The translations under genes were made by a program, and so were the position numbers. The notes under the pieces are model-generated. The model ran no database searches and was not told the origin of the DNA. It saw nothing but the letters and a program-made list of their open reading frames with translations. From assembly GCF_900187035.1 (NCBI RefSeq), contig NZ_LT906446.1, forward strand, positions 806,001-870,000: a stretch of 64,000 nt of DNA, in the 5' to 3' direction. Shown here in pieces: positions 3,602 to 15,571 of this stretch (position 1 is the stretch's first letter; every line of letters starts with the position of its first letter). The DNA is from Megamonas hypermegale (GTDB lineage Bacteria; Bacillota; Negativicutes; Selenomonadales; Selenomonadaceae).

Positions 3602-4933
3602 CTATGCCTTTTTTGACTTGGCTTTTACTAAAAATATCAACTTATCTTCTTTCAACTTGTTGATATAGTTACGAAAAAATATATTAGGTATTGCTACACC
3701 AACAGCTATAGCCAATAATATCAATGTTGTATTTACTCCATTATTCAAAACATGATGATAACTCATATTATTTACATTTTCTAAATTGATAATACTAAAT
3801 AATAAACGATACATAAATACACCGGGAATTAATGGAATTACTGATGGAATAGTCAATACATGACTTGGAGCATGTACTATATGCACTGCTTTTAAAGATA
3901 ATAAACTAACTATTACAGCTCCTATAAGTGAAGCTGTTGCTTGAGAATAATCACATTTCAACATTAAAAAATTACGCACACCTACTGAAATCACTGCACC
4001 ACAAGCTACTACAATTAATAATCTAGGTGGCATATTAAATATAGTAGCGAAACCGATTGCTGCTACTGCTGAAGCTATAGCACATACTAAAAAAGAATTT
4101 GAAGAAATGATGCTTAGACTAATAAAATCTTGAACATGACATAATTTTATGGCAAAAGCTATACCAAAAGTCATGCTACCTATCATCAATAAAGTATTCA
4201 TTGCCCTTGTCATTCCTGCTGTGATGAAATTATCTACTAAATCATCTATAGCATTAATAAGTGGAATTCCAGGAACAATAAACAAACTACAAGCAATAAG
4301 TGGATGCCATGGCGTTTGAGTAGGTAAAAAATGTATAAAGTATGCACAAATAGTTGCTACAAAAGCGGAAATAGCTATAGAGGCATACGAATTAAAGTTC
4401 AGTAAATTACATTTCATTCGCGTCCAATAACCTATCATGGCACAAATAGATGTATAAACAAATGCTAATAAATCTCCACCAAATAATAAACTAAAGCCGC
4501 CACAAGCTAACCCTGCACTAATCATAACGAGTGGCTTTTTATAATATCTTCTGCGTAAACAAATAAATCTCAATTCTTTTTCAAATTCATTTAAAGAATA
4601 ATCTTGTTCAATAGCTCGCCATGATAATTTGCTTATCCCTGAAATAGCTGTCATATCTACACCATGTCGATAGCATTTCTGAAAATTAGTAATAGATTTA
4701 TCTCCAGTATTGATATTCACCATTATCGTGGTAAATGTAATATGAATTTGTAATCTTCTTTCAGGAATTTTCATAAAAACTCCAACTCTTTTCATATTAC
4801 GCACAATACGGTTTGTATCTGCTCCACTTTCCATTAAAACTTTTCCTACACGCAAAATTAATTGTATTTTTCGTTCAACTTCATCATCATTTTTTAAATT
4901 CTTTAAATTATTTTGCTCCAGATAATCAGTCAT
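3602..4933 (-). CDS. ThrE-family threonine/serine exporter, paralogue 1
   Basis: Membrane protein of the ThrE family, in which the hydrophilic domain and the membrane domain (often split into two genes in Firmicutes) are fused. The N-terminal part has the family signature QLILRVGKVLMESGADTNRI, and about ten hydrophobic helices follow. The role inferred from the family is proton-driven export of threonine or serine. I start at the ATG at 4933, which follows GGAG at good spacing. The longer frame to 4981 lacks a ribosome-binding site, and the chosen length of 443 residues equals that of the paralogue at 10787-12118. A LysR gene is divergent to it and may regulate it. Confidence 0.85.
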   Translation of the reverse strand: MTDYLEQNNLKNLKNDDEVERKIQLILRVGKVLMESGADTNRIVRNMKRVGVFMKIPERRLQIHITFTTIMVNINTGDKSITNFQKCYRHGVDMTAISGISKLSWRAIEQDYSLNEFEKELRFICLRRRYYKKPLVMISAGLACGGFSLLFGGDLLAFVYTSICAMIGYWTRMKCNLLNFNSYASIAISAFVATICAYFIHFLPTQTPWHPLIACSLFIVPGIPLINAIDDLVDNFITAGMTRAMNTLLMIGSMTFGIAFAIKLCHVQDFISLSIISSNSFLVCAIASAVAAIGFATIFNMPPRLLIVVACGAVISVGVRNFLMLKCDYSQATASLIGAVIVSLLSLKAVHIVHAPSHVLTIPSVIPLIPGVFMYRLLFSIINLENVNNMSYHHVLNNGVNTTLILLAIAVGVAIPNIFFRNYINKLKEDKLIFLVKAKSKKA

Positions 4934-5331
4934 CTTTTCAACTCCAATATTAAAATATTTCTTTTTATTACTTAATAGCATAAATCATTTTATAATATAA
5001 TTGATTTCTTATTAAAATATATTTAATATTATCATGCAAATACAAATAAAATTCAAATACAGGTTTGTTATTTAATTTATAACAAAAATGCATTAATAGA
5101 TAGAAAAGATTCATCTTATAAAGTATTTCTTTTAATTACTATAAATTATTAAATACCTTATAGATAATTAGAAATTTTTGAACTAATAGAAGCAACATTA
5201 GCTATATAAAAGATATTTATATTTTAATTATGTATTAATAAATATTTATTTAATATTTGCATATGTTATGCTATAATATATATATACTTTAATTAATATT
5301 ATTTATATATAATCATTTAAGGAGGATAACA
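4934..5331. other. AT-rich divergent intergenic region between thrE1 and lysR
   Basis: No coding sequence or strong hairpin is visible in these 398 bases. A TATAAT at 5272-5277 is a plausible -10 for lysR, without a convincing -35. A divergent layout of this kind commonly contains the binding site of the LysR regulator, but I could not identify a specific dyad. Confidence 0.5.
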
Positions 5332-6207
5332 ATGGAACTAAAACAGTTAGAATATTTTCAAATGACTAGTCGATTGAAGAATATTACACGCGCTGCTAAA
5401 AGACTTTCAGTTTCTCAACCAAATATCACAGTAGCCATAAAAAAATTAGAAGCTGAATTAGGTATACAATTATTTGAACGTAGCCAAAAACAACTTTCCT
5501 TAACACCAGAAGGAGCTGTTTTTTTAAATCGTATAGAACAAGCACTACGCAATATTCAAGATGCCGTTTTAGAAGTAAATGATTATAAACAATTGCAAAA
5601 AGGCACAATAAAAATAGGTATTCCATCTATGATTGGTGCATACTTATTTCCCAAAATCTTTTCCGGCTTTCAAAAAAAATTTTCTCATTTAGATGTTTAT
5701 TTATATGAAAAAGGTTCTATGTCTATTCGTGAATCACTTGAACGAGATGAACTTGATTTTGGTATTGTGATTATTTCTAATGCATCACCAAGTTTGCAAC
5801 TTCTTCCAATGTCTACAAATCAAGTTGTAGCATGTGTTCCTGATTCACATCCTTTGGCTAGAAAAAATAAATTTTCTTGGAGCGATATAAATAACATTGA
5901 TTTAATCATGTTAAAAGAAGGCTCTTTCATTCGTAATATGATTTCAAATAAATTGAAAGAAAATAATATTAAGCCAAATATCGTCCTTGAATCAAATCAG
6001 ATAGAAACAATCAAAGGATTAATTTCCAGTAATGTCGGTATGGCATTCTTACTTGATTTTATAGTTCAAGATTCTCCACATATTAAAACTTTACCACTTG
6101 AAAAACCTATTTTTGTAGATGTAGGTCTTGCGTGGAAAAAAGACCGCTATATTTCTAAAGCAGCTCAATCATTTATAAATTTTTGTCAAGAAACACTAAC
6201 TAAATAA
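5332..6207 (+). CDS. LysR-family transcriptional regulator
   Basis: A 291-residue regulator of standard LysR length. The N-terminal winged helix-turn-helix is clear: MELKQLEYFQMTSR, then ITRAAKRLSVSQPNITVAIK, then the wing LGIQLFERSQKQLSLTPEG. The remainder is a periplasmic-binding-protein-like effector domain (about 90-291). The ATG is preceded by AAGGAGG. It is divergent to thrE paralogue 1, the usual geometry for a LysR regulator and its target, so amino-acid-responsive control of the exporter is a plausible inference. The effector cannot be told from sequence. Confidence 0.93.
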   Translation: MELKQLEYFQMTSRLKNITRAAKRLSVSQPNITVAIKKLEAELGIQLFERSQKQLSLTPEGAVFLNRIEQALRNIQDAVLEVNDYKQLQKGTIKIGIPSMIGAYLFPKIFSGFQKKFSHLDVYLYEKGSMSIRESLERDELDFGIVIISNASPSLQLLPMSTNQVVACVPDSHPLARKNKFSWSDINNIDLIMLKEGSFIRNMISNKLKENNIKPNIVLESNQIETIKGLISSNVGMAFLLDFIVQDSPHIKTLPLEKPIFVDVGLAWKKDRYISKAAQSFINFCQETLTK

Positions 6208-6214
6208 ATGGTAT

Positions 6215-6253
6215 AAAAAAACATCTATGAATTAATTATCATAGATGTTTTTT
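6215..6253. terminator. Bidirectional terminator between lysR and sepF
   Basis: ACATCTATGA (6221-6230) pairs perfectly with TCATAGATGT (6239-6248). It has an A-run on the left and a T-run on the right and separates convergent genes. Confidence 0.85.
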
Positions 6254-6255
6254 CA

Positions 6256-6744
6256 TTATGCTTTGTTAGATTCAATTTTTTCAATGGCAATTCCTTTTGG
6301 AACATATAATACCATTTTATTAGTAATCTGTTTTACAGAACCATCAAGTACATAACAAGCACCATTCATAAAATCACAGATACGAACTTGTTCGCTTGAT
6401 TCGATTTTTTCAAAATTAATAAGTACAGTTTTGCCATCTTTTAAAGCATCAGCTACAAATCTAGTGTCATTAAAATTAGTAGGTTCAAATACAAGAATTT
6501 TTATATTAGCATGTTCATAAACCTTCAAACTAGGACGACCTTCTTCTTTTTGAACAGGTTTTGCAGGTGCAGCTTCAGTGTATAAAGGAGCGCCATTTAC
6601 TACTTTTTTTCCCTCAGAAGCAACTCTAACTCTAGTTTTAATTGATTTTTCTTTTTCTTGAGCTTTCTGTGCTGGAGTTTCAACAACTTCAACTTCTTCT
6701 TCAGGAATTAATATCTTTGATAATTTAGATAAAAAATCTGACAT
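6256..6744 (-). CDS. sepF: Cell division protein SepF
   Basis: SepF is a membrane-associated Z-ring component that polymerises and tethers or bundles FtsZ. The 162-residue protein has a short N-terminal amphipathic segment (MSDFLSKLSKILIP), a charged linker, and the conserved C-terminal SepF domain (about 75-157) with IKILVFEPTNFNDTRFVADA, VLINFEKIESSEQVRICDFM and GACYVLDGSVKQI. The ATG follows GAGGTGATATT. In Bacillus sepF lies in the yggS/ylm cluster near ftsZ; here it stands alone between lysR and typA, which is a rearranged context. Confidence 0.93.
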   Translation of the reverse strand: MSDFLSKLSKILIPEEEVEVVETPAQKAQEKEKSIKTRVRVASEGKKVVNGAPLYTEAAPAKPVQKEEGRPSLKVYEHANIKILVFEPTNFNDTRFVADALKDGKTVLINFEKIESSEQVRICDFMNGACYVLDGSVKQITNKMVLYVPKGIAIEKIESNKA

Positions 6745-6879
6745 AATATCACCTCAATCACATATTTAATTATAATACAAAATAAATAAAATATAAAATA
6801 AAAGATATACATTCTTTTCTATTTAAATTTGAAAAATCCTGCAATAAAAAATATATTCTTACAATTTATCATTTAAGTA

Positions 6880-6914
6880 AAAGGAAACGATATTTAAATA
6901 TATCGTTTCCTTTT
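6880..6914 (-). terminator. Terminator of typA
   Basis: GGAAACGATAT and ATATCGTTTCC pair around a short AT loop and are flanked by A and T runs. It lies about 15 bases after the typA stop codon. Confidence 0.85.
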
Positions 6915-6929
6915 CGCTTATATCATAAA

Positions 6930-8744
6930 TTATTTTGCAGTTTTACGCATACGACCGCGCTGTGCTTTATCAAGAATTGTTTTTCTTAAACGAATGCTTT
7001 CTGGTGTAACTTCTACCATTTCATCTTTATTAATATATTCTAAAGCCTGTTCCAAGCTTAAAATACGTGGAGGTGTTAAGCGAATAGCTTCATCAGAAGA
7101 AGAAGAACGCATATTGGATACGTTTTTCTTTTTGCATGGGTTAACATCCATATCAAGTTCACGGCTATTTTCACCAATAATCATACCTTCATAAACCATT
7201 TGGTTTGGAGAGATGAACATTGTACCACGGTCTTGAAGTGTATAAATACCGTATGGAGTAGTTTCGCCTTGTTCAAAAGCAACGAGAGAGCCACGACTAC
7301 GTCCTGGAATATCTCCTTTATATGGAGCATATCCGCGGAATACATGGTTCATAATACCATTACCTTTAGTATTAGTTAAGAATTCAGAACGGAAACCGAT
7401 AAGACCACGAGCTGGAATTGTGAATTCAAGACGTAAATAACCTTTGAGTTCTGTCATATTGGAAAGTTCTGCTTTACGTGTACCAAGGGATTCCATAACA
7501 GTACCCATGAATTCCTGTGGAACTTCAATAGTGAGGTTTTCCATTGGTTCGCAGAGTTGACCATTAATTTCTTTATAAATAACTTCTGGTTTACCGATTT
7601 GAAGTTCATAACCTTCACGGCGCATTGTTTCAATCAAGATAGAAAGATGCAATTCGCCACGGCCAGAAACTTTAAATGTATCAGGACTATCTGTTTCTTC
7701 AACACGAAGACTTACATTTGTTTCAGTTTCTTTAAATAAACGTTCGCGTAAATGACGAGATGTTACAAATTGACCTTCACGACCAGCGAATGGGCTAGTA
7801 TTAACACCAAATGTCATGGAAAGTGTTGGTTCATCAATGTTGATTGTTGGAAGAGCTTCTGGATTTTCAGCATCTGCTACAGTATGACCAATACTTGCAC
7901 TTGCAAGACCAGTAAGAGCTACGATTTCACCGAGTGGAGCTTCTGGAACTTCAACACGTTTTAAACCTTGGTAAACATATACTTTACCAATACGTTCTTT
8001 CTGTTCACCATCGCCACTGATAACGACAACGTTTTGACCTTCTCTTATTTTACCACGCATTACTCTACCGATAGCTACGCGGCCAACATATTCATCAGAG
8101 TCAAGTGTTGTAACCATTAATTGAAGAGGACCATCAATATCGCCCTGTGGAGCTGGGATTTCTTTTACTAATAAATCCATTAATGGTTCAAGGCTATCAC
8201 TTTCATCTTCAAGGTTAAGTTTTGCAATACCATCACGAGCAATAGCATATACAACAGGGAAATCAAGCTGATCATCATCAGCACCGAGTTCCATGAATAA
8301 TTCCAGAATTTCATCATAAACATCATCGATACGCTGGTCAGGACGGTCGATTTTATTGATGACAACAATAGGTTTTAAACCTTGTTCTAAAGCTTTACGT
8401 AAAACATATTTAGTCTGAGGCATAGGACCTTCAGAAGCATCAACAAGCAAAAGGACACCATCAACCATGTTGAGTACACGTTCAACTTCGCCACCAAAAT
8501 CGGCATGGCCCGGTGTATCAACAATATTGATTTTAATATCTTTATACATTACAGCTGTATTTTTGGACAAAATGGTAATACCGCGTTCACGTTCAAGCGC
8601 ATTAGAATCCATTACACGTTCTGCTACTTGTTCATTAGCACGGAAAATATGACTTTGTTTAAGCATAGCATCAACAAGAGTAGTTTTACCGTGGTCAACA
8701 TGAGCTATGATAGCGACATTTCTCAATTTGTTGTTAGTATACAA
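6930..8744 (-). CDS. typA: Ribosome-associated GTPase TypA/BipA
   Basis: Translational GTPase of the elongation-factor family that acts in 50S ribosome assembly and stress adaptation. The 604-residue length is typical. The GTPase motifs are AHVDHGKTT (14-22), DTPGH (76-80) and NKID (130-133); EF-G-like domains III and V and a basic C-terminal TypA domain follow. The start is a TTG at 8744, behind AGGAGG at a spacing of 9. No ATG lies upstream of the P-loop, so TTG is the only reasonable choice. It is transcribed alone. Identification is secure from the complete motif set and length. Confidence 0.96.
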
Positions 8745-8868
8745 AAAAAATTCCTCCTAATGTATCAATGATATAGTTATATTTTAAAAGTATCTTTTTA
8801 TTAGTGTAGTATATCCATATATTTATGTCAAATATTAATTTACTTTGTAATAGTATTTATTGCGATAA

Positions 8869-9732
8869 TTATGGTTCTTCAAGTGAAATATTACCGAGTT
8901 TACCAGCGCGAAAATCTTTTAAAATAGCAATTGCTGTTTTTTCTGTATCAATCACGCCGCCTTTTTGTAAAAAGCCTCGTTTTTTACCAACAAGTGCAAA
9001 TAACTCTTCACTTGTCTGTGGCAATTCAGTTATTTTATAACGCTCCATTATATTTTGTCCATAGCGGTCTTTTAAACGCCAAATCAAAAGTTGTGCCGCA
9101 TGTTCAATATCATAGACTTCATCGCTAATAGCTCCTGTAAAAGCTAAATTTAAACCTACTTCTGGGTCTTCAAATTTAGGCCATAAAATACCTGGTGTAT
9201 CCAACAAGTCAAGATTATTTTTAATTTTAATCCATTGTTTAGCACGTGTAACACCTGGTTTATCGGCCGTTTTAAGTGAAGCACTACCTGATAGGCGATT
9301 TATTAGTGAAGATTTACCAACATTCGGTATTCCTACAATCATAACACGAGCATTGCGCGGTTTAGCACCTTTACTAGCAAATTTAGCAGTTTTACTTTTT
9401 GCAAGTTCATCTGCTTTAGTAACGAGTTGGCGAATGCCTTTACCATTTAATGAATTTATTTTTACAACGGATTTACCTAATGAAGTAAAATATTCTTCCC
9501 ATTCATTATTAATAGCATTATCTGCTAAATCAATTTTATTCAAAGCAATGAGATGAGGTTTACTTCCTATTAAATCTTTTAAAATTGGATTGGCACTGCT
9601 ACGCGGAATACGAGCATCTAAAAGTTCTATGACTACATCAACCAACTTTAAATTTTCTATGATGATACGCTTTGCCTTAGCCATATGACCAGGATACCAG
9701 TTAAGTTGCGCAAGTGTTCCTAAATCGTCCAT
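8869..9732 (-). CDS. rbgA: Ribosome biogenesis GTPase RbgA (YlqF)
   Basis: Circularly permuted GTPase needed for late assembly of the 50S subunit. The permuted order is visible: G4 NKID (65-68) comes before G1 GIPNVGKSSL (134-143) and G3 DTPG (178-181). The N-terminus LNWYPGHMAKAKR is the family hallmark, and a C-terminal RNA-binding helical domain follows. The true start is the ATG at 9732, seven bases after AGGAGG; an upstream in-frame TTG at 9738 is too close to it. The product is 287 residues. It is expressed as a single gene between typA and a HAD phosphatase gene. Confidence 0.95.
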   Translation of the reverse strand: MDDLGTLAQLNWYPGHMAKAKRIIIENLKLVDVVIELLDARIPRSSANPILKDLIGSKPHLIALNKIDLADNAINNEWEEYFTSLGKSVVKINSLNGKGIRQLVTKADELAKSKTAKFASKGAKPRNARVMIVGIPNVGKSSLINRLSGSASLKTADKPGVTRAKQWIKIKNNLDLLDTPGILWPKFEDPEVGLNLAFTGAISDEVYDIEHAAQLLIWRLKDRYGQNIMERYKITELPQTSEELFALVGKKRGFLQKGGVIDTEKTAIAILKDFRAGKLGNISLEEP

Positions 9733-9778
9733 ATTCAAACCTCCTTATAAAATTTATATATACGACAAATAAACTCAA

Positions 9779-9814
9779 CAAAAAAGGCACTGCTTTAAAA
9801 TAAAAAACAGTGTC
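9779..9814 (-). terminator. Terminator of the first HAD gene
   Basis: GGCACTG (9786-9792) pairs with CAGTGTC (9808-9814), with one G-U pair in the RNA. On the minus strand it is followed by a T-run. Confidence 0.75.
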
Positions 9815-9856
9815 TATTAATATATTATATACCATATTCATTACAAAATCAAAAAA

Positions 9857-10645
9857 TTATAGTACATTAAAATGTTTCAATGCATTTAAAATGCCATCAT
9901 TATCTACATCGGTCGTCACATAATCAGCAATAGATTTTACATCATCAGAAGCATTTCCCATAGCTACACCAATTTTAGCAAATTCCAACATTTCCTTATC
10001 ATTACCGCCATCGCCGAATGCCATGCATTCATCAATATCTATGCCGTAATAATCCAAAACGTATTTAATGCCCGTCGCCTTTCCGCCGTCCTTCGGAATT
10101 ATATCACCGACGAAAGGGCACCATCTGACCGAGCGGCAGTTCGGCATCATCTTTAAAATAGGAGCTTCGTCTTCTTCCGGTAAGAATAAATTCAGTTGAT
10201 ATGTTTTGTGCGTATATATACGTTGCATACTGTCGACAAATCTTTTCGGTGCAGTACCCCCAAGAGCTTTATCAAAATCATCCAGATACTGATTGCGCAG
10301 ATTGTAATAGAAATAATCAAGCTCAATGAAACCGCAGGCAATATCCTTATCCTTGAAATAATCCGTTAAAACGGTCAAATCGTTTTTATCAAGTGTCTGT
10401 TCGTGAATAATATTGTCATTTTTATCATAACAGTACTGCCCGTTCAACGTGATGTATCCGTCAAATAAATCATGCAGTTCCTTCGTCAAAAATTTGATAT
10501 CCGCAGGAGGACGACCCGTGCAGATGAATAATTTAATACCTTTATTATGAAGCTCGTTCAGTGCTTTTATTGTCGATTGCGGAATTTTATGCGTTTTAAA
10601 ACTGATTAATGTTCCGTCTATATCGAAAAAAATCGCTTTTACCAT
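9857..10645 (-). CDS. Cof-type HAD-superfamily phosphatase, paralogue 1
   Basis: A 262-residue sugar-phosphatase-like hydrolase of the Cof/YkrA group (HAD class IIB cap). The catalytic motif FFDIDGTLISF lies at 6-16 with Asp8 and Asp10, motif II is ICTGRP, and the C-terminal metal motif is FGDGGNDKEM at about 207-216. Substrates of this group are usually broad sugar or cofactor phosphates and cannot be predicted. The DNA encoding the N-terminal three quarters (about 10,020-10,645) is much richer in G+C than the last part; one 60-base stretch at 10081 has 34 G+C against 22 at 9901. This is part of the imported-looking block described below. Confidence 0.9.
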   Translation of the reverse strand: MVKAIFFDIDGTLISFKTHKIPQSTIKALNELHNKGIKLFICTGRPPADIKFLTKELHDLFDGYITLNGQYCYDKNDNIIHEQTLDKNDLTVLTDYFKDKDIACGFIELDYFYYNLRNQYLDDFDKALGGTAPKRFVDSMQRIYTHKTYQLNLFLPEEDEAPILKMMPNCRSVRWCPFVGDIIPKDGGKATGIKYVLDYYGIDIDECMAFGDGGNDKEMLEFAKIGVAMGNASDDVKSIADYVTTDVDNDGILNALKHFNVL

Positions 10646-11275
10646 ATAATTATCAGCCTACTTTCGTTGAAATACATAATCAGTATAATAAAATTCTCGC
10701 CAAATAACAAGAATAATATTTTTCATTCATATCGGCTATAATGAGGCACTACTTAAAATCTAAAAAAAGCAAAACAGTTTATGCTTTTATTTCTGCTGTA
10801 ATTGATGCAATGTACGCTGTCTGTATTTTCTTTCCGATAGAGCATGCCGCAGCCGCTTGCAATTAAGCGTATCAAAATATTTTCTGGCCACAATGTTGGG
10901 CAGAGCGACGCCGACTGTAATGGCCAATATGACCAATGTGGCATTTACGCCGCTTTGTACGGCCGACAGTAACTCGCTTGCATTTAAGGCATCTATATCT
11001 ATGATATTAAACAACAGGCGGTACATGAAAATTCCCGGCATTAAGGCAATCGCAGACGGAATAACCAATACGTGCGTGGGTACATGAAACCAGTGTACTG
11101 CCTTCAATGCAATAATGCTGATAGCCAGTGCCCCTAAAAAAGTTCCTATCGGCATGCCGACTCCCAGTAAATCCATGGATACGGTACGGACACAGACACA
11201 GATTATGCCGCCGATACCGACAATTAACAAAAGGCGCGGCGGCACATCGAACATGGTGGAAAAACCAGCTGAAGC
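10020..11275. other. Block of anomalous base composition spanning two partial genes
   Basis: Counts by eye in 60-base lines give 34 G+C at 10081, 29 at 10801 and 31 at 11161, against 15 at 11281 and 22 at 9901. The change at about 11,275 is abrupt and falls inside an intact reading frame. The block starts inside the HAD gene and ends inside thrE paralogue 2, and neither gene is broken. Homologous replacement from a relative with higher G+C is the simplest reading; exact borders are estimates. Confidence 0.7.
10764..10788 (-). terminator. Weak terminator of thrE paralogue 2
   Basis: On the minus strand AAAAGC and GCTTTT pair around a 12-base loop, followed by a T-run. It begins at the stop codon of thrE paralogue 2. 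Confidence 0.55.
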
Positions 11276-12118
11276 GATAAATGCTGAAAATACATAAATA
11301 ATATAAGACTGATGACTTATCATCTCTATATGCGTAAAATCTGTAACATTAAAAATTTTAATTGCAAATAATATACCAAAGGTCATAGCTCCTACCATTA
11401 AAAGCGTATTCATGGCACGCGTCATACCCGCTGTGATATATCCATCAAGCATATCCTCTAAGGCATTTATCATAGGAACACCAGGAACTATAAAAATAGC
11501 ACATGCAAGCATAGGATACCAAGGCGTAGAACTAAATGGCAAAAAATGCATGAAATAGGCAACTGTTGTCGCAACAAAAGAAGAAATCTGTATTGCTACA
11601 TATGGATTGATTTTGCTTTTAACACATACTTTTCTAACAAAAAAACCAATAAAAGCAGCAAATGCCGTATACAGTGCAGCTACTAAATCACAGCCAAACA
11701 TTTTGCCAACTCCACCGCAGGCAAGTGCAGCACCTAAGTTTATGATAAATGAAGTATATTTATTTTTCTTTTTAACAATTTGTTCGAGTTGATAACGAAA
11801 TTGTTCTAATGAGAAATCTTTTTCAATTGCTTCCCATGTCAACTTACTGACTTCAGATATTACATGCATATCAACATTATGTTGTTGGCACTTTTGCAAC
11901 TTCGTTAAATGGTAGTTATTCTCACTAACAGTAATCATTATCGTTGTATACGTTATGTGTATCTGTATTTGCTCATCGAATATATTAGCAAATGCTGCTG
12001 TTCTCTTCATAGAGCGTACAATTCTATTCGTATCAGCAGAGTTTTCCATTAAAAGTTGCCCAACTCTTAAAATAAGCTGTGCCTTAGCATTAAGTTCTAT
12101 ATATTTTTTATCTATCAT
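10787..12118 (-). CDS. ThrE-family threonine/serine exporter, paralogue 2
   Basis: A 443-residue membrane protein collinear with paralogue 1 at 3602-4933. It shares the N-terminal QLILRVGQLLMENSADTNRI, the central VPGVPMINALEDMLDGYITA and the late IMALK-type helices ending IPSAIALMPGIFMYRLLFNI. Amino-acid export is inferred from the family. The ATG follows AGGGGAAATTT. The 3' half of the gene (10787 to about 11,275) has much higher G+C and different codon choice from the 5' half, yet the frame is open throughout, so the gene seems to be a recombinant that stayed functional. Both copies are full length, so this is a duplication rather than a split. Confidence 0.85.
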   Translation of the reverse strand: MIDKKYIELNAKAQLILRVGQLLMENSADTNRIVRSMKRTAAFANIFDEQIQIHITYTTIMITVSENNYHLTKLQKCQQHNVDMHVISEVSKLTWEAIEKDFSLEQFRYQLEQIVKKKNKYTSFIINLGAALACGGVGKMFGCDLVAALYTAFAAFIGFFVRKVCVKSKINPYVAIQISSFVATTVAYFMHFLPFSSTPWYPMLACAIFIVPGVPMINALEDMLDGYITAGMTRAMNTLLMVGAMTFGILFAIKIFNVTDFTHIEMISHQSYIIYVFSAFIASAGFSTMFDVPPRLLLIVGIGGIICVCVRTVSMDLLGVGMPIGTFLGALAISIIALKAVHWFHVPTHVLVIPSAIALMPGIFMYRLLFNIIDIDALNASELLSAVQSGVNATLVILAITVGVALPNIVARKYFDTLNCKRLRHALSERKYRQRTLHQLQQK

Positions 12119-12397: not shown

Positions 12398-13816
12398 TCA
12401 GATAGTATGAACGCGAATTGTGCTTGTGCTACCTTCGCCAAATTTCATACCAGAAGTGATGATTGTTTTATCGCCTTGTTTTACAATGCCTTTGCGAACA
12501 GCAGCAGCAGTTGCAGTTGCGATCATTTCATCAACATCATCCCATGCTTTACCTTCAACAGGGATAACGCCCCAACGTAAGTTGAGATGACGAGCAACGC
12601 GTTCGCTAGGAGTGTAAGCAACGATTGTAGCTTTTGGACGATATTTGGAAACTACTTTAGAAGTGTAACCGCTTTCAGTTGGAGTGATGATAGCTTCTGC
12701 ACTGAGTTCATAAGCCATCTGAACTGTAGCATGAGCGATAACGTCTGTAGTAGTGATATTGTGATGAGTGAAGCCTTTAGAAATAAAGATTTCTTTGTAT
12801 TCAAGAGCTTGTTCAACACGTTTAGCAATAGTGTTCATAGTGGAAACAGCTTCTAATGGATAATCACCATTTGCGGATTCACCGGAAAGCATGATAGCAT
12901 CTGCACCGTCGAAGATTGCATTAGCAACGTCGGAAGCTTCTGCACGAGTTGGACGTGGGTTAGCAGTCATGGATTCAAGCATCTGAGTTGCAACGATAAC
13001 TGGTTTACCGAGTTTGTTACATTTTTTGATGATATCTTTCTGAATAAGAGGAACTTCTTCAGCTGGCATTTCAACACCGAGGTCACCACGAGCAACCATG
13101 ATACCATCAGATGCAGCGATGATAGCATCGATATTTTTAACAGCTTCAACACATTCGATTTTGGAAATAATTTCCATGTGTCCACCATGTTCTTTAATTA
13201 AAGAACGAATAGCTTCTACGTCTTCAGCACGCTGAATGAAAGAAGCAGCGACAAAGTCCATGTCATGTTCGATACCGAAGATGATATCGTTTCTGTCTTG
13301 TTCGGAAATAGCTGGAAGACCTAAAGATACGCCAGGAGCAGCAGCACGTTTACGAGTGCTCATAGGTCCATCATTCAAAATAGTAGTAACAATGTCTTTA
13401 CCTACGATTTCGTCAACATGAAGACCAACGAGACCATCGGATAATAACAAAGTATTACCAGGTTTTACTTCAGTGTAAAGTTTTTTATGATTGATGGAAA
13501 CATGTGTTTCATCACCTGGAATGTCTTCATTAGTTAAAGTGAATTTGTTGCCTGCTTTAAGGAATACTTTACCTTCAGCAAAATCGCCAAGACGCATTTC
13601 AGGTCCTTTTGTATCAAGCATTAAAGAAACAGTTACGCCAAGTTTTTTAGCAGTTTCTTTTACTTGATTAATGCGAGTTTCATGTTCTGCATAGTCACCA
13701 TGAGAGAAATTGAAACGAGCAACGTTCATGCCATTTTCAATAACTTTTTCTAAAAGGCCATCGCCTTTATCATAGTTAGGACCCATTGTGCAAACGACTT
13801 TTGTTTTCTTTAACAT
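12398..13816 (-). CDS. pyk: Pyruvate kinase
   Basis: Last step of glycolysis, converting phosphoenolpyruvate and ADP to pyruvate and ATP. The protein starts MLKKTKVVCTMGP, has the B-domain insertion, the catalytic segment EIISKIECVEAVKN and MVARGDLGVEMP, and ends in an allosteric C-domain. There is no extra PEP-utiliser domain, and 472 residues is normal. I start at the ATG at 13816, because an in-frame GTG at 13831 is within the AGGTGGGG ribosome-binding site. It is the last gene of the glycolytic cluster, 29 bases after the GGGtGRT gene, so these two are probably co-transcribed. Confidence 0.97.
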   Translation of the reverse strand: MLKKTKVVCTMGPNYDKGDGLLEKVIENGMNVARFNFSHGDYAEHETRINQVKETAKKLGVTVSLMLDTKGPEMRLGDFAEGKVFLKAGNKFTLTNEDIPGDETHVSINHKKLYTEVKPGNTLLLSDGLVGLHVDEIVGKDIVTTILNDGPMSTRKRAAAPGVSLGLPAISEQDRNDIIFGIEHDMDFVAASFIQRAEDVEAIRSLIKEHGGHMEIISKIECVEAVKNIDAIIAASDGIMVARGDLGVEMPAEEVPLIQKDIIKKCNKLGKPVIVATQMLESMTANPRPTRAEASDVANAIFDGADAIMLSGESANGDYPLEAVSTMNTIAKRVEQALEYKEIFISKGFTHHNITTTDVIAHATVQMAYELSAEAIITPTESGYTSKVVSKYRPKATIVAYTPSERVARHLNLRWGVIPVEGKAWDDVDEMIATATAAAVRKGIVKQGDKTIITSGMKFGEGSTSTIRVHTI

Positions 13817-13845
13817 TTTTAAAATCCCCACCTAAATAAAATTTT

Positions 13846-14847
13846 TTATTTACTCATTGCTTCCTGTACAGCTACAGCTACGGCTACGCTAGCACCAACC
13901 ATAGGATTGTTACCCATGCCGATGAGACCCATCATTTCAACATGAGCAGGTACGGAAGAAGAACCAGCAAACTGAGCATCAGAATGCATACGACCCATAG
14001 TATCAGTCATACCATAGGAAGCAGGACCTGCTGCCATGTTATCTGGATGAAGTGTTCTACCAGTACCGCCGCCGGATGCAACGGAGAAGTATTTTTTACC
14101 CTTTTCAATGCATTCTTTTTTGTAGCAGCCTGCTACTGGATGCTGGAAACGGGTTGGGTTTGTAGAGTTACCAGTAATAGAGATGTCAACATCTTCTTTA
14201 TGCATGATGGCAACACCTTCTTGAACGCTATCTGCACCATAGCATTTAATAGCAGCACGTTCACCAGTAGAATAAGGAGTTTCCTTAACTACATTGAGGT
14301 CACCAGTTGCATAATCATACTGAGTTTGAACATAAGTGAAACCATTTATACGAGAAATAATCTGAGCAGCATCTTTGCCAAGACCATTTAAGATAACTTT
14401 CAAAGGAGTAGTTCTAACTTTATTTGCAGTTCTAGCGATACCAATAGCACCTTCAGCTGCAGCAAAAGATTCATGACCTGCGAGGAATGCAAAGCATTTT
14501 GCATCTTCACTTAAAAGCATGGAAGCAAGGTTACCATGACCTAAACCTACTTTTCTGTTTTCAGCAACAGAACCAGGAATACAGAAAGCTTGAAGACCTT
14601 CACCAATAACTTTAGCAGCATCTACAGCTTTTGTGCAACCTTTTTTAATTGCCATAGCTGCACCTACAGTGTAAGCCCAGCAAGCGTTTTCAAAGCAAAT
14701 TGGCTGAATACCTCTAACGATAGCAGCTACATCAATGCCTTTATCGTCACAGATTTTTTTAGCTTCTTCAAGAGAAGAAATACCATAGCCGTCTAAAGCT
14801 TTGTTAATTTTATCAATACGACGTTCGTAACTTTCAAACAATGCCAT
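13846..14847 (-). CDS. GGGtGRT-family protein of unknown function
   Basis: A 333-residue protein recognised by its namesake glycine motif, GGGTGRT at 259-265 within YFSVASGGGTGRTLHPDN. The family is found mainly in anaerobes, has no established activity, and is typically paired with an IscU/NifU-like scaffold gene, as here (25 bases apart). No signal peptide or membrane segment is seen. Nine cysteines (33, 51, 56, 71, 89, 118, 202, 241, 246) could matter if the protein binds or receives an iron-sulfur cluster. The glycine-rich motif could be a phosphate or nucleotide site, but that is speculation. The location between gpmI and pyk, where enolase often lies, is notable. Confidence 0.88.
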   Translation of the reverse strand: MALFESYERRIDKINKALDGYGISSLEEAKKICDDKGIDVAAIVRGIQPICFENACWAYTVGAAMAIKKGCTKAVDAAKVIGEGLQAFCIPGSVAENRKVGLGHGNLASMLLSEDAKCFAFLAGHESFAAAEGAIGIARTANKVRTTPLKVILNGLGKDAAQIISRINGFTYVQTQYDYATGDLNVVKETPYSTGERAAIKCYGADSVQEGVAIMHKEDVDISITGNSTNPTRFQHPVAGCYKKECIEKGKKYFSVASGGGTGRTLHPDNMAAGPASYGMTDTMGRMHSDAQFAGSSSVPAHVEMMGLIGMGNNPMVGASVAVAVAVQEAMSK

Positions 14848-14872
14848 TTAATTTCATTCCTTCCTAAATTTA

Positions 14873-15571
14873 TTATTCTTTACGAGGGTCTACGTATCTT
14901 GCAGCTTCAGCAAAACGACCATAAGTACCTTTTGCTTTTTCTAAAGCTTCTTGAGCAGGAATACCTTTTTTAGTAATCATTTCCATCATTTTGCCGAGGT
15001 GAACGAATTCATAACCGATGATACGGTCTTCTGCATCAAGAGCAATTCTTGTTACATAACCTTCAGCAAGTTCAAGATAACGGGAACCTTTTGCAAGTGT
15101 ACCATACATAGTACCAACCTGGCTTCTTAAACCTTTACCAAGGTCTTCAAGGCCAGCACCGATTGGAAGACCGCCTTCGGAGAATGCAGTCTGAGTTCTA
15201 CCATATACGATCTGGAGGAATAATTCTCTCATAGCAGTATTGATAGCATCACAAACAAGGTCAGTGTTTAATGCTTCAAGAATAGTTTTACCAGGAAGAA
15301 TTTCGGAAGCCATAGCTGCGGAATGAGTCATACCGGAGCAACCAATAGTTTCAACTAATGCTTCTTGGATAACGCCATCTTTAACATTGAGTGTTAATTT
15401 GCAAGCACCCTGTTGAGGAGCACACCAGCCAACACCATGAGTTAAACCACTGATATCTTTGATTTCTTTAGCCTGTACCCATTTACCTTCTTCAGGAATT
15501 GGAGCTGGGCCATGTTTTTCAATGCCTTTTGCCACACATGTCATGTTAGACACTTCTTGTGAATAGATCAT
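14873..15571 (-). CDS. IscU/NifU-like iron-sulfur scaffold partner of the GGGtGRT protein
   Basis: A 232-residue protein whose middle resembles the IscU/NifU N-terminal scaffold. Cys50 and Cys57 (WCAPQQGACKL), Cys78 (ETIGCSGMTHSAAMASEIL) and Cys107 (DLVCDA) are candidates for the cluster ligands. It is longer than IscU, with an extra C-terminal region (about 125-232) that includes YVTRIALDAEDRIIGYEFVH. The ATG follows AAGGAGAGG. It likely assembles or holds a cluster for the GGGtGRT partner encoded immediately downstream. No iscS, sufS or other assembly gene is adjacent, so it is unlikely to be the general housekeeping scaffold. Function is inferred from family and pairing. Confidence 0.82.
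   Translation of the reverse strand: MIYSQEVSNMTCVAKGIEKHGPAPIPEEGKWVQAKEIKDISGLTHGVGWCAPQQGACKLTLNVKDGVIQEALVETIGCSGMTHSAAMASEILPGKTILEALNTDLVCDAINTAMRELFLQIVYGRTQTAFSEGGLPIGAGLEDLGKGLRSQVGTMYGTLAKGSRYLELAEGYVTRIALDAEDRIIGYEFVHLGKMMEMITKKGIPAQEALEKAKGTYGRFAEAARYVDPRKE

Follow-up and report, generated by a model that had tools for sequence, protein, structure and literature searches.

Genes at the locus

The window, a stretch of 64,000 nucleotides of Megamonas hypermegale DNA (contig NZ_LT906446.1, positions 806,001 to 870,000), belongs to a genome of 2,230,342 bases in one contig (G000) and carries two paralogues of the threonine/serine exporter family. Paralogue 2 (thrE2; 10787..12118, minus strand) encodes a single-chain family protein of 443 aa that matches both Pfam domains of the family, ThrE (PF06738; residues 15-255; 202.8 bits, cut-off 26.3) and ThrE_2 (PF12821; residues 276-409; 99 bits, cut-off 27). 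In having both domains in one chain it resembles the ThrE family as a whole; unlike characterised ThrE, it stays below the equivalog cut-off of the NCBIfam ThrE model NF047720 (64.8 bits, cut-off 550), and its base composition shifts near the border between the domains. Its substrate is left at family level here because that equivalog cut-off was missed. The neighbouring gene (9857..10645, minus strand) encodes a Cof-type HAD-IIB phosphatase of 262 aa (TIGR00099, PF08282) that passes the TIGR00099 cut-off (208.7 bits, cut-off 137).

The pair is flanked on the left by a YlqF/RbgA-like GTPase gene (8869..9738, minus strand; Pfam MMR_HSR1 and related), with a third-codon-position G+C content (GC3) of 0.19, and on the right by a pyruvate kinase gene (12398..13831, minus strand; GC3, 0.27). 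The first exporter paralogue, a 459-aa frame at 3602..4981 on the minus strand, has a GC3 of 0.16-0.19. The names pyk, typA, rbgA (YlqF/RbgA-like), PTS IIC/IID, PitA, FeoB and CstA, as used below, are those that the sequences suggest.

A two-edged block of raised GC3

A one-block likelihood fit over rbgA, the HAD gene, thrE2 and pyk placed a high-GC3 block at 9986..11258 of the window (approximately 1.27 kb, 377 codons, minus-strand genes), within which GC3 is 0.464 against 0.238 in the flanking genes. The log-likelihood ratio (lnLR) of this fit was 32.9, and none of 500 shuffles reached the score of the block; on a coarse grid, the real block scored 32.6 and the highest of the 500 codon shuffles 11.6. 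It takes in the final 157 codons of thrE2, crosses the 141-bp intergenic gap and extends through codon 220 of the HAD gene, whose last 42 codons lie outside. The 95% interval of the left edge is 9941-10070 (129 bases; best estimate, 9986) and that of the right edge 11243-11426 (183 bases; best estimate, 11258-11261). The block of about 1.25 kb (10020-11275) proposed in an earlier note on this DNA was thus correct to about 35 bases of the best edge estimates (9986 and 11258).

The edge within thrE2 is strong in its own right: analysed alone, the gene steps from a GC3 of 0.25 to 0.52 at codon 286 (change-point interval, approximately 231-292) with an lnLR of 15.4, which ranks first among 946 reading frames from a 1.26-Mb sample of the genome, as well as first among 343 in a smaller sample, and lies above the highest value of 11.5 among 2838 in a shuffled-gene null. 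The 946 frames were mechanical frames of at least 150 codons, from which those within 6 kb of a 16S match had been removed, including the PTS IID gene discussed below. As the step lies close to the border between the ThrE and ThrE_2 domains, a true import would have swapped roughly one domain. The HAD edge by itself is weaker (GC3 from 0.43 to 0.14 at codon 220; lnLR, 6.8; rank 20 of 946), falls within the null range and is supported mainly by the joint one-block fit.

The G+C counts per 60 bases follow the same pattern, with 31 at 11161, 29 at 11221 and 15 at 11281 on the right side, and 34 at 10081 against 22 at 9901 on the left; the four counts on which the earlier note had relied (11161, 11281, 10081 and 9901) proved exact on recount. 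The quoted counts are nevertheless picked extremes, as the block also contains 60-mers no richer than the flanks (19 at 10261, 16 at 10621); GC3 is the cleaner measure. The intergenic gap at 10646-10786 has a G+C content of 0.262 against 0.185-0.212 in three neighbouring gaps, which is no evidence alone because 22% of 185 intergenic gaps in a genome sample are at least as rich. Collectively, the compositional mosaic is real and statistically strong.

Comparison with relatives and a second assembly

In the one congeneric genome compared (G001), the block is absent from both orthologues: thrE2 (71% protein identity) is flat, with GC3 values of 0.26 and 0.25 on the two sides of the step, as is the HAD gene (65% protein identity; 0.19 and 0.17). 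Before and after the step alike, the thrE2 protein is 71% identical to that of G001. Among nine other homologues (the homologues comprising two copies of paralogue 1 and genes of eight family relatives), GC3 of the C-terminal part (C-part, residues 287-443) is at most 0.06 above that of the N-terminal part (N-part, residues 1-286), the largest rises being 0.30 to 0.36 in G042 and 0.51 to 0.57 in G178. A shift common to all relatives, which the earlier note had named as an observation that would speak against import, was accordingly not seen, and a family-wide or domain-driven codon pattern was rejected in view of the flat orthologues with the same domains. Gene conversion from paralogue 1 was likewise rejected, as that paralogue is G+C-poor. 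The strongest step in G001 itself had an lnLR of 8.7 (smaller sample, 142 frames).

At conserved residues of thrE2, codon identity to G001 falls from 91/190 before the step to 34/106 after it (nominal p 0.01), a drop that would also come from a G+C rise alone. Across 33 gene pairs between G000 and G001, synonymous sites are near saturation in most (median excess codon identity, 0.14), which precludes dating from nucleotides. The HAD gene and thrE2 are among the eight least conserved of these 33 pairs, and thrE2 over its entire length, its poor part included, has either diverged fast or an older complex history behind it. The two exporter paralogues differ greatly in divergence rate, the identity to G001 being only 71% for paralogue 2 and 92% for paralogue 1.

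A separate metagenome-assembled record (L008), the one second assembly in our within-species sampling, also has the tract: it is contiguous across both edges, and its block is 99.7% identical (4/1273 differences). Since this record carries the block through both edges, an assembly chimera is very unlikely and was dismissed as a candidate, and the block occurs in more than one assembly. Divergence within the species is uneven along this region, the same record differing from the window at 59/4185 positions left of the block (5801-9985), 4/1273 inside it and 5/1172 to its right.

Phylogeny of the two parts of the exporter

Separate trees of the two parts of the exporter had been proposed in the earlier note, with the prediction that they would conflict. 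Of 43 protein rows collected, 41 were used, with L009, which shares its contig with G045, and L008, which hardly differs from the window, omitted; 10 loci were taken from one set of 80, and 28 rows besides G000 and G001 came from another set of 30. No conflict between the parts was found in these 41-protein trees. In the N-part tree, G000 groups with G001 (support, 100/99) and G042 with G045 joins next (99/96), and the C-part tree recovers the same groups (100/99 and 98/94); the path between G000 and G001 is 0.50 and 0.48, respectively. With the same tree for both halves, import from a sampled distant genus is unsupported, and a donor would have to be near, unsampled and G+C-richer.

The branches are equal in the N-part (0.25 each), and in the C-part that of G000 is 0.42 against 0.056 for G001. 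We take the longer C-part branch of G000 as a hint only: a relative-rate flip between the halves looked promising in pairwise identities and was set aside, as the site-count contrast reached significance with a single outgroup panel of five (p 0.007), the other four giving p 0.25-0.69. In both half trees, the exporter L080, whose contig is labelled Candidatus Akkermansia, groups with Phocaeicola, which may reflect a recent transfer or a mis-binned contig.

Donor search, codon usage and gene order

No donor matching the tract better than its flanks was found in 189 genomes of the family by DNA or in 380 genomes of the class by C-part protein. At E 0.001, block DNA had matches in 15 of the 189 family genomes, the own genome counted, the best besides G000 being G001 (70%) and then G045 (66%). 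At 1e-35, C-part protein matches were obtained in 92 of the 380 class genomes, again with the own genome counted, and none was nearer than G001 (71%), followed by G045 (59%) and G042 (56%). If the block was imported, its donor would be an unsampled relative whose distance from G001 is about that of G000. The HAD protein has a close relative among the 189 family genomes only in G001 (65%), the next being 33-35%; in plasmids, 12 records matched at 1e-30, the best at 45.5% from Parabacteroides (Bacteroidota), and no relative was found in viral contigs. The distribution within the family, together with the best plasmid match, suggests that the HAD gene may have been acquired earlier from outside the family.

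The block is foreign to the bulk codon usage of its own genome. Out of 15 codon-usage tables, those of the G000 bulk (-1.31 per codon) and of G001 (-1.41) fitted it worst, and the N-part of thrE2 fits the G000 bulk well (-0.98). The best fit was given by another rich tract of the same genome (L169 1-7000; -1.08), and the next ones were about alike, namely sampled family loci (-1.11), G045 (-1.13), the L167 tract (-1.13) and Bacteroidota (-1.14). Codon usage was therefore abandoned as a pointer to a single donor, as it is not specific and much of it reflects G+C and table size. The tract in PitA fits the codon usage of the block worse (-1.25), and a common source for the rich tracts is therefore not required.

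The G001 counterparts of the genes at the locus are dispersed, with rbgA/typA at approximately 1442 kb, the HAD gene at 1255 kb, thrE2 at 914 kb and pyk at 1207 kb, and the thrE2-HAD junction is absent there, the two genes not being neighbours. The match to the rbgA side of G001 stops at 9854, three bases before the 3' end of the HAD gene. The gene-order breakpoints relative to G001, at 9854 and 12381 of the window, coincide with both ends of the HAD-thrE2 pair, and the four pieces around the pair sit tens to hundreds of kb apart in G001. No HAD homologue (E 1e-15) was found in the fetched flanks of the thrE loci L009-L087, which extend up to 5 kb and are shorter in several cases. Homology to G001 at the edges of the block is mild (percentiles, 0.62-0.90), and the idea that recombination edges lie at strongly conserved DNA was dropped on that account.

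Other rich tracts in the genome

Counting the block, a survey of 350,472 codons gave eleven tracts that are at least 100 codons long and have a GC3 of at least 0.44. Of their 22 edges, 14 fall 30 codons or more into a frame; some of these frames might not be real genes, and some tracts may be noise or truncated at the ends of the stretches. The list leaves out frames within 6 kb of a 16S match; the PTS IID tract, which is additional, was handled separately. In the PTS IID gene (228.3 kb), GC3 rises at codon 117, from 0.26 to 0.55, and DNA identity to G001 is 0.87 before this point and 0.77 after it; the G001 orthologue shows no step, and the order IIC-IID-HAD is conserved. The tract that starts inside this gene (L167 8633-13056; G000:C1 about 228633-233056) is approximately 4.4 kb long with a GC3 of 0.51, covers what we take to be a HAD paralogue and a CstA-like protein, and ends approximately 0.8 kb before a 16S rRNA gene (13844-15399), a possible long anchor for homologous pairing. 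Some rich frames of L167, from 13799 onward, overlap this 16S rRNA gene.

A gene presumably encoding a PitA-like phosphate permease (L182 15848-16846; G000:C1:1775848-1776846) has a GC3 of 0.59 in codons 1-203 and 0.30 thereafter; it is flat in G001, and its protein is 92% identical to that of G001 inside the rich part and 91% outside. The longest rich tract listed (G000:C1 894937-905188; L243) extends over approximately 10 kb with a GC3 of 0.50. It includes a presumed FeoB gene (900.4 kb), which we did not retain as a clean native-to-foreign step, as its GC3 is raised throughout (0.40, then 0.61). A further tract (L169 1-7000; G000:C1:440001-447000; GC3, 0.49) contains what is presumably an ABC iron/haem-uptake-like gene set, after which the rich state ends at a TonB-type receptor gene. 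The p-values for PTS IID, PitA and FeoB are nominal because the break points were chosen from the data. That PTS IID and PitA also step where G001 does not suggests a recurrent process.

Origin of the block

We consider it probable (about 0.7) that the block is a replacement tract that came from a close, unsampled, G+C-richer relative by homologous recombination. DNA of such a donor, with a GC3 of about 0.5 and already having the thrE2-HAD gene order, would have recombined into the chromosome and replaced approximately 1.27 kb of the resident copy, and the replacement would have ended inside both genes with both frames kept. This reading draws on the sharp two-edged block within open frames, on its absence from G001, on its presence in the second assembly and on the comparable steps elsewhere in the genome, from which we infer the outside origin, the homologous recombination, the gene order shared by the donor and the route of entry. 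The homologous import proposed in the earlier note gains from the two-edged block that is absent from G001 and loses from the identical tree of both halves and the fruitless donor search. The hybrid exporter that it had foreseen is a hybrid in base composition; its function is not demonstrably hybrid. Judged from the protein sequence, no change in transport would be expected, since identity to G001 is equal on both sides of the step and both domains are matched. A replacement ending inside both genes requires a donor with the thrE2-HAD junction, which points to a near relative; the import model is at its weakest in assuming this gene order.

The main rival, which we regard as unlikely, holds that the DNA is native and that its G+C rose in place in this lineage, for instance through local selection on synonymous sites or through G+C-biased gene conversion at a site prone to recombination. 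Such conversion has been suggested to occur in bacteria (PMC4450053), and one account says that it has not been observed in them (PMC8153448). It would produce a local synonymous G+C rise with no change of the tree, as in the block, and the topology is compatible with a gradual native rise: both parts of thrE2 give the same tree at about equal protein distance, and the near-equal identity of PitA to G001 inside and outside its rich part means that only synonymous change is needed there. The edges argue against it, since two sharp boundaries in one gene pair, placed within 129 and 183 bases, and a doubling of GC3 in one short tract would be unexpected from gene conversion, just 11 such patches, this one included, were counted in 350,472 codons, and gradual processes should not end so abruptly.

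Much less probable is a history in which the rich block came with the formation of the thrE2-HAD junction itself, as a foreign fragment that entered through homology on one side and end-joining on the other, with no resident pair replaced. The four separate places of HAD, thrE2, pyk and rbgA in G001, the lack of the junction there and the end of the rbgA-side match three bases short of the HAD 3' end all fit such a history. Against it, the tail of the HAD gene beyond the block edge is poor in G+C (GC3, 0.14) and roughly as similar to G001 as the rest (protein identity, 0.62 against 0.65), which suggests a resident HAD gene, although this argument depends on the weaker HAD edge. We give hardly any weight to chance, domain-driven codon choice or an assembly chimera as the source of the pattern. 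Some patches in the genome are small and may be noise, and the HAD edge alone is within the null range; the empty count among 500 shuffles, the flat same-domain orthologues and the same block in L008 oppose this explanation, and at the thrE2 edge the shuffles, the 946-frame ranking, the G001 comparison and L008 already count against it.

Mosaic genes arise by in-frame replacement of part of a chromosomal gene, typically as a short tract with edges inside genes. Such genes formed by intragenic homologous recombination are described for penA of Neisseria (PMC10926701), and recombination among E. coli is likewise described (PMC1779527). Replacement from a close relative would place thrE2 and the HAD gene in this company, as part of a gene would have been exchanged in frame in a short tract with edges inside genes; the features that they show are a sharp change inside a continuous frame and a signature that is absent from G001, one congener. 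The block differs from those mosaic genes in that it has no found donor, mainly compositional support and no known selective benefit. Among titles retrieved from the literature on homologous recombination in Megamonas and on the M. hypermegale genome and horizontal transfer, none concerned recombination in Megamonas. The event is most likely an ordinary one, as intragenic replacement is already well known and one further case changes little.

The methodological point is that composition and phylogeny disagree at thrE2. The usual test, a comparison of half-gene trees, misses an import whose donor is a near relative outside the sampling, and GC3 edges are not blind to it; unsampled lineages are also described as affecting gene-flow tests (PMC9473628). 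Beyond this locus, we tentatively entertain, with more doubt than confidence, the idea that short replacement tracts scattered over the genome, the block among them and several ending inside genes, derive from a single unsampled sister lineage of higher G+C (a "ghost donor"). If several tracts share one missing donor, the genus would lend itself well to the study of gene flow out of a lineage that is itself unsampled, and, were the ghost-donor reading true, these tracts could help to recover part of the gene content of that lineage.
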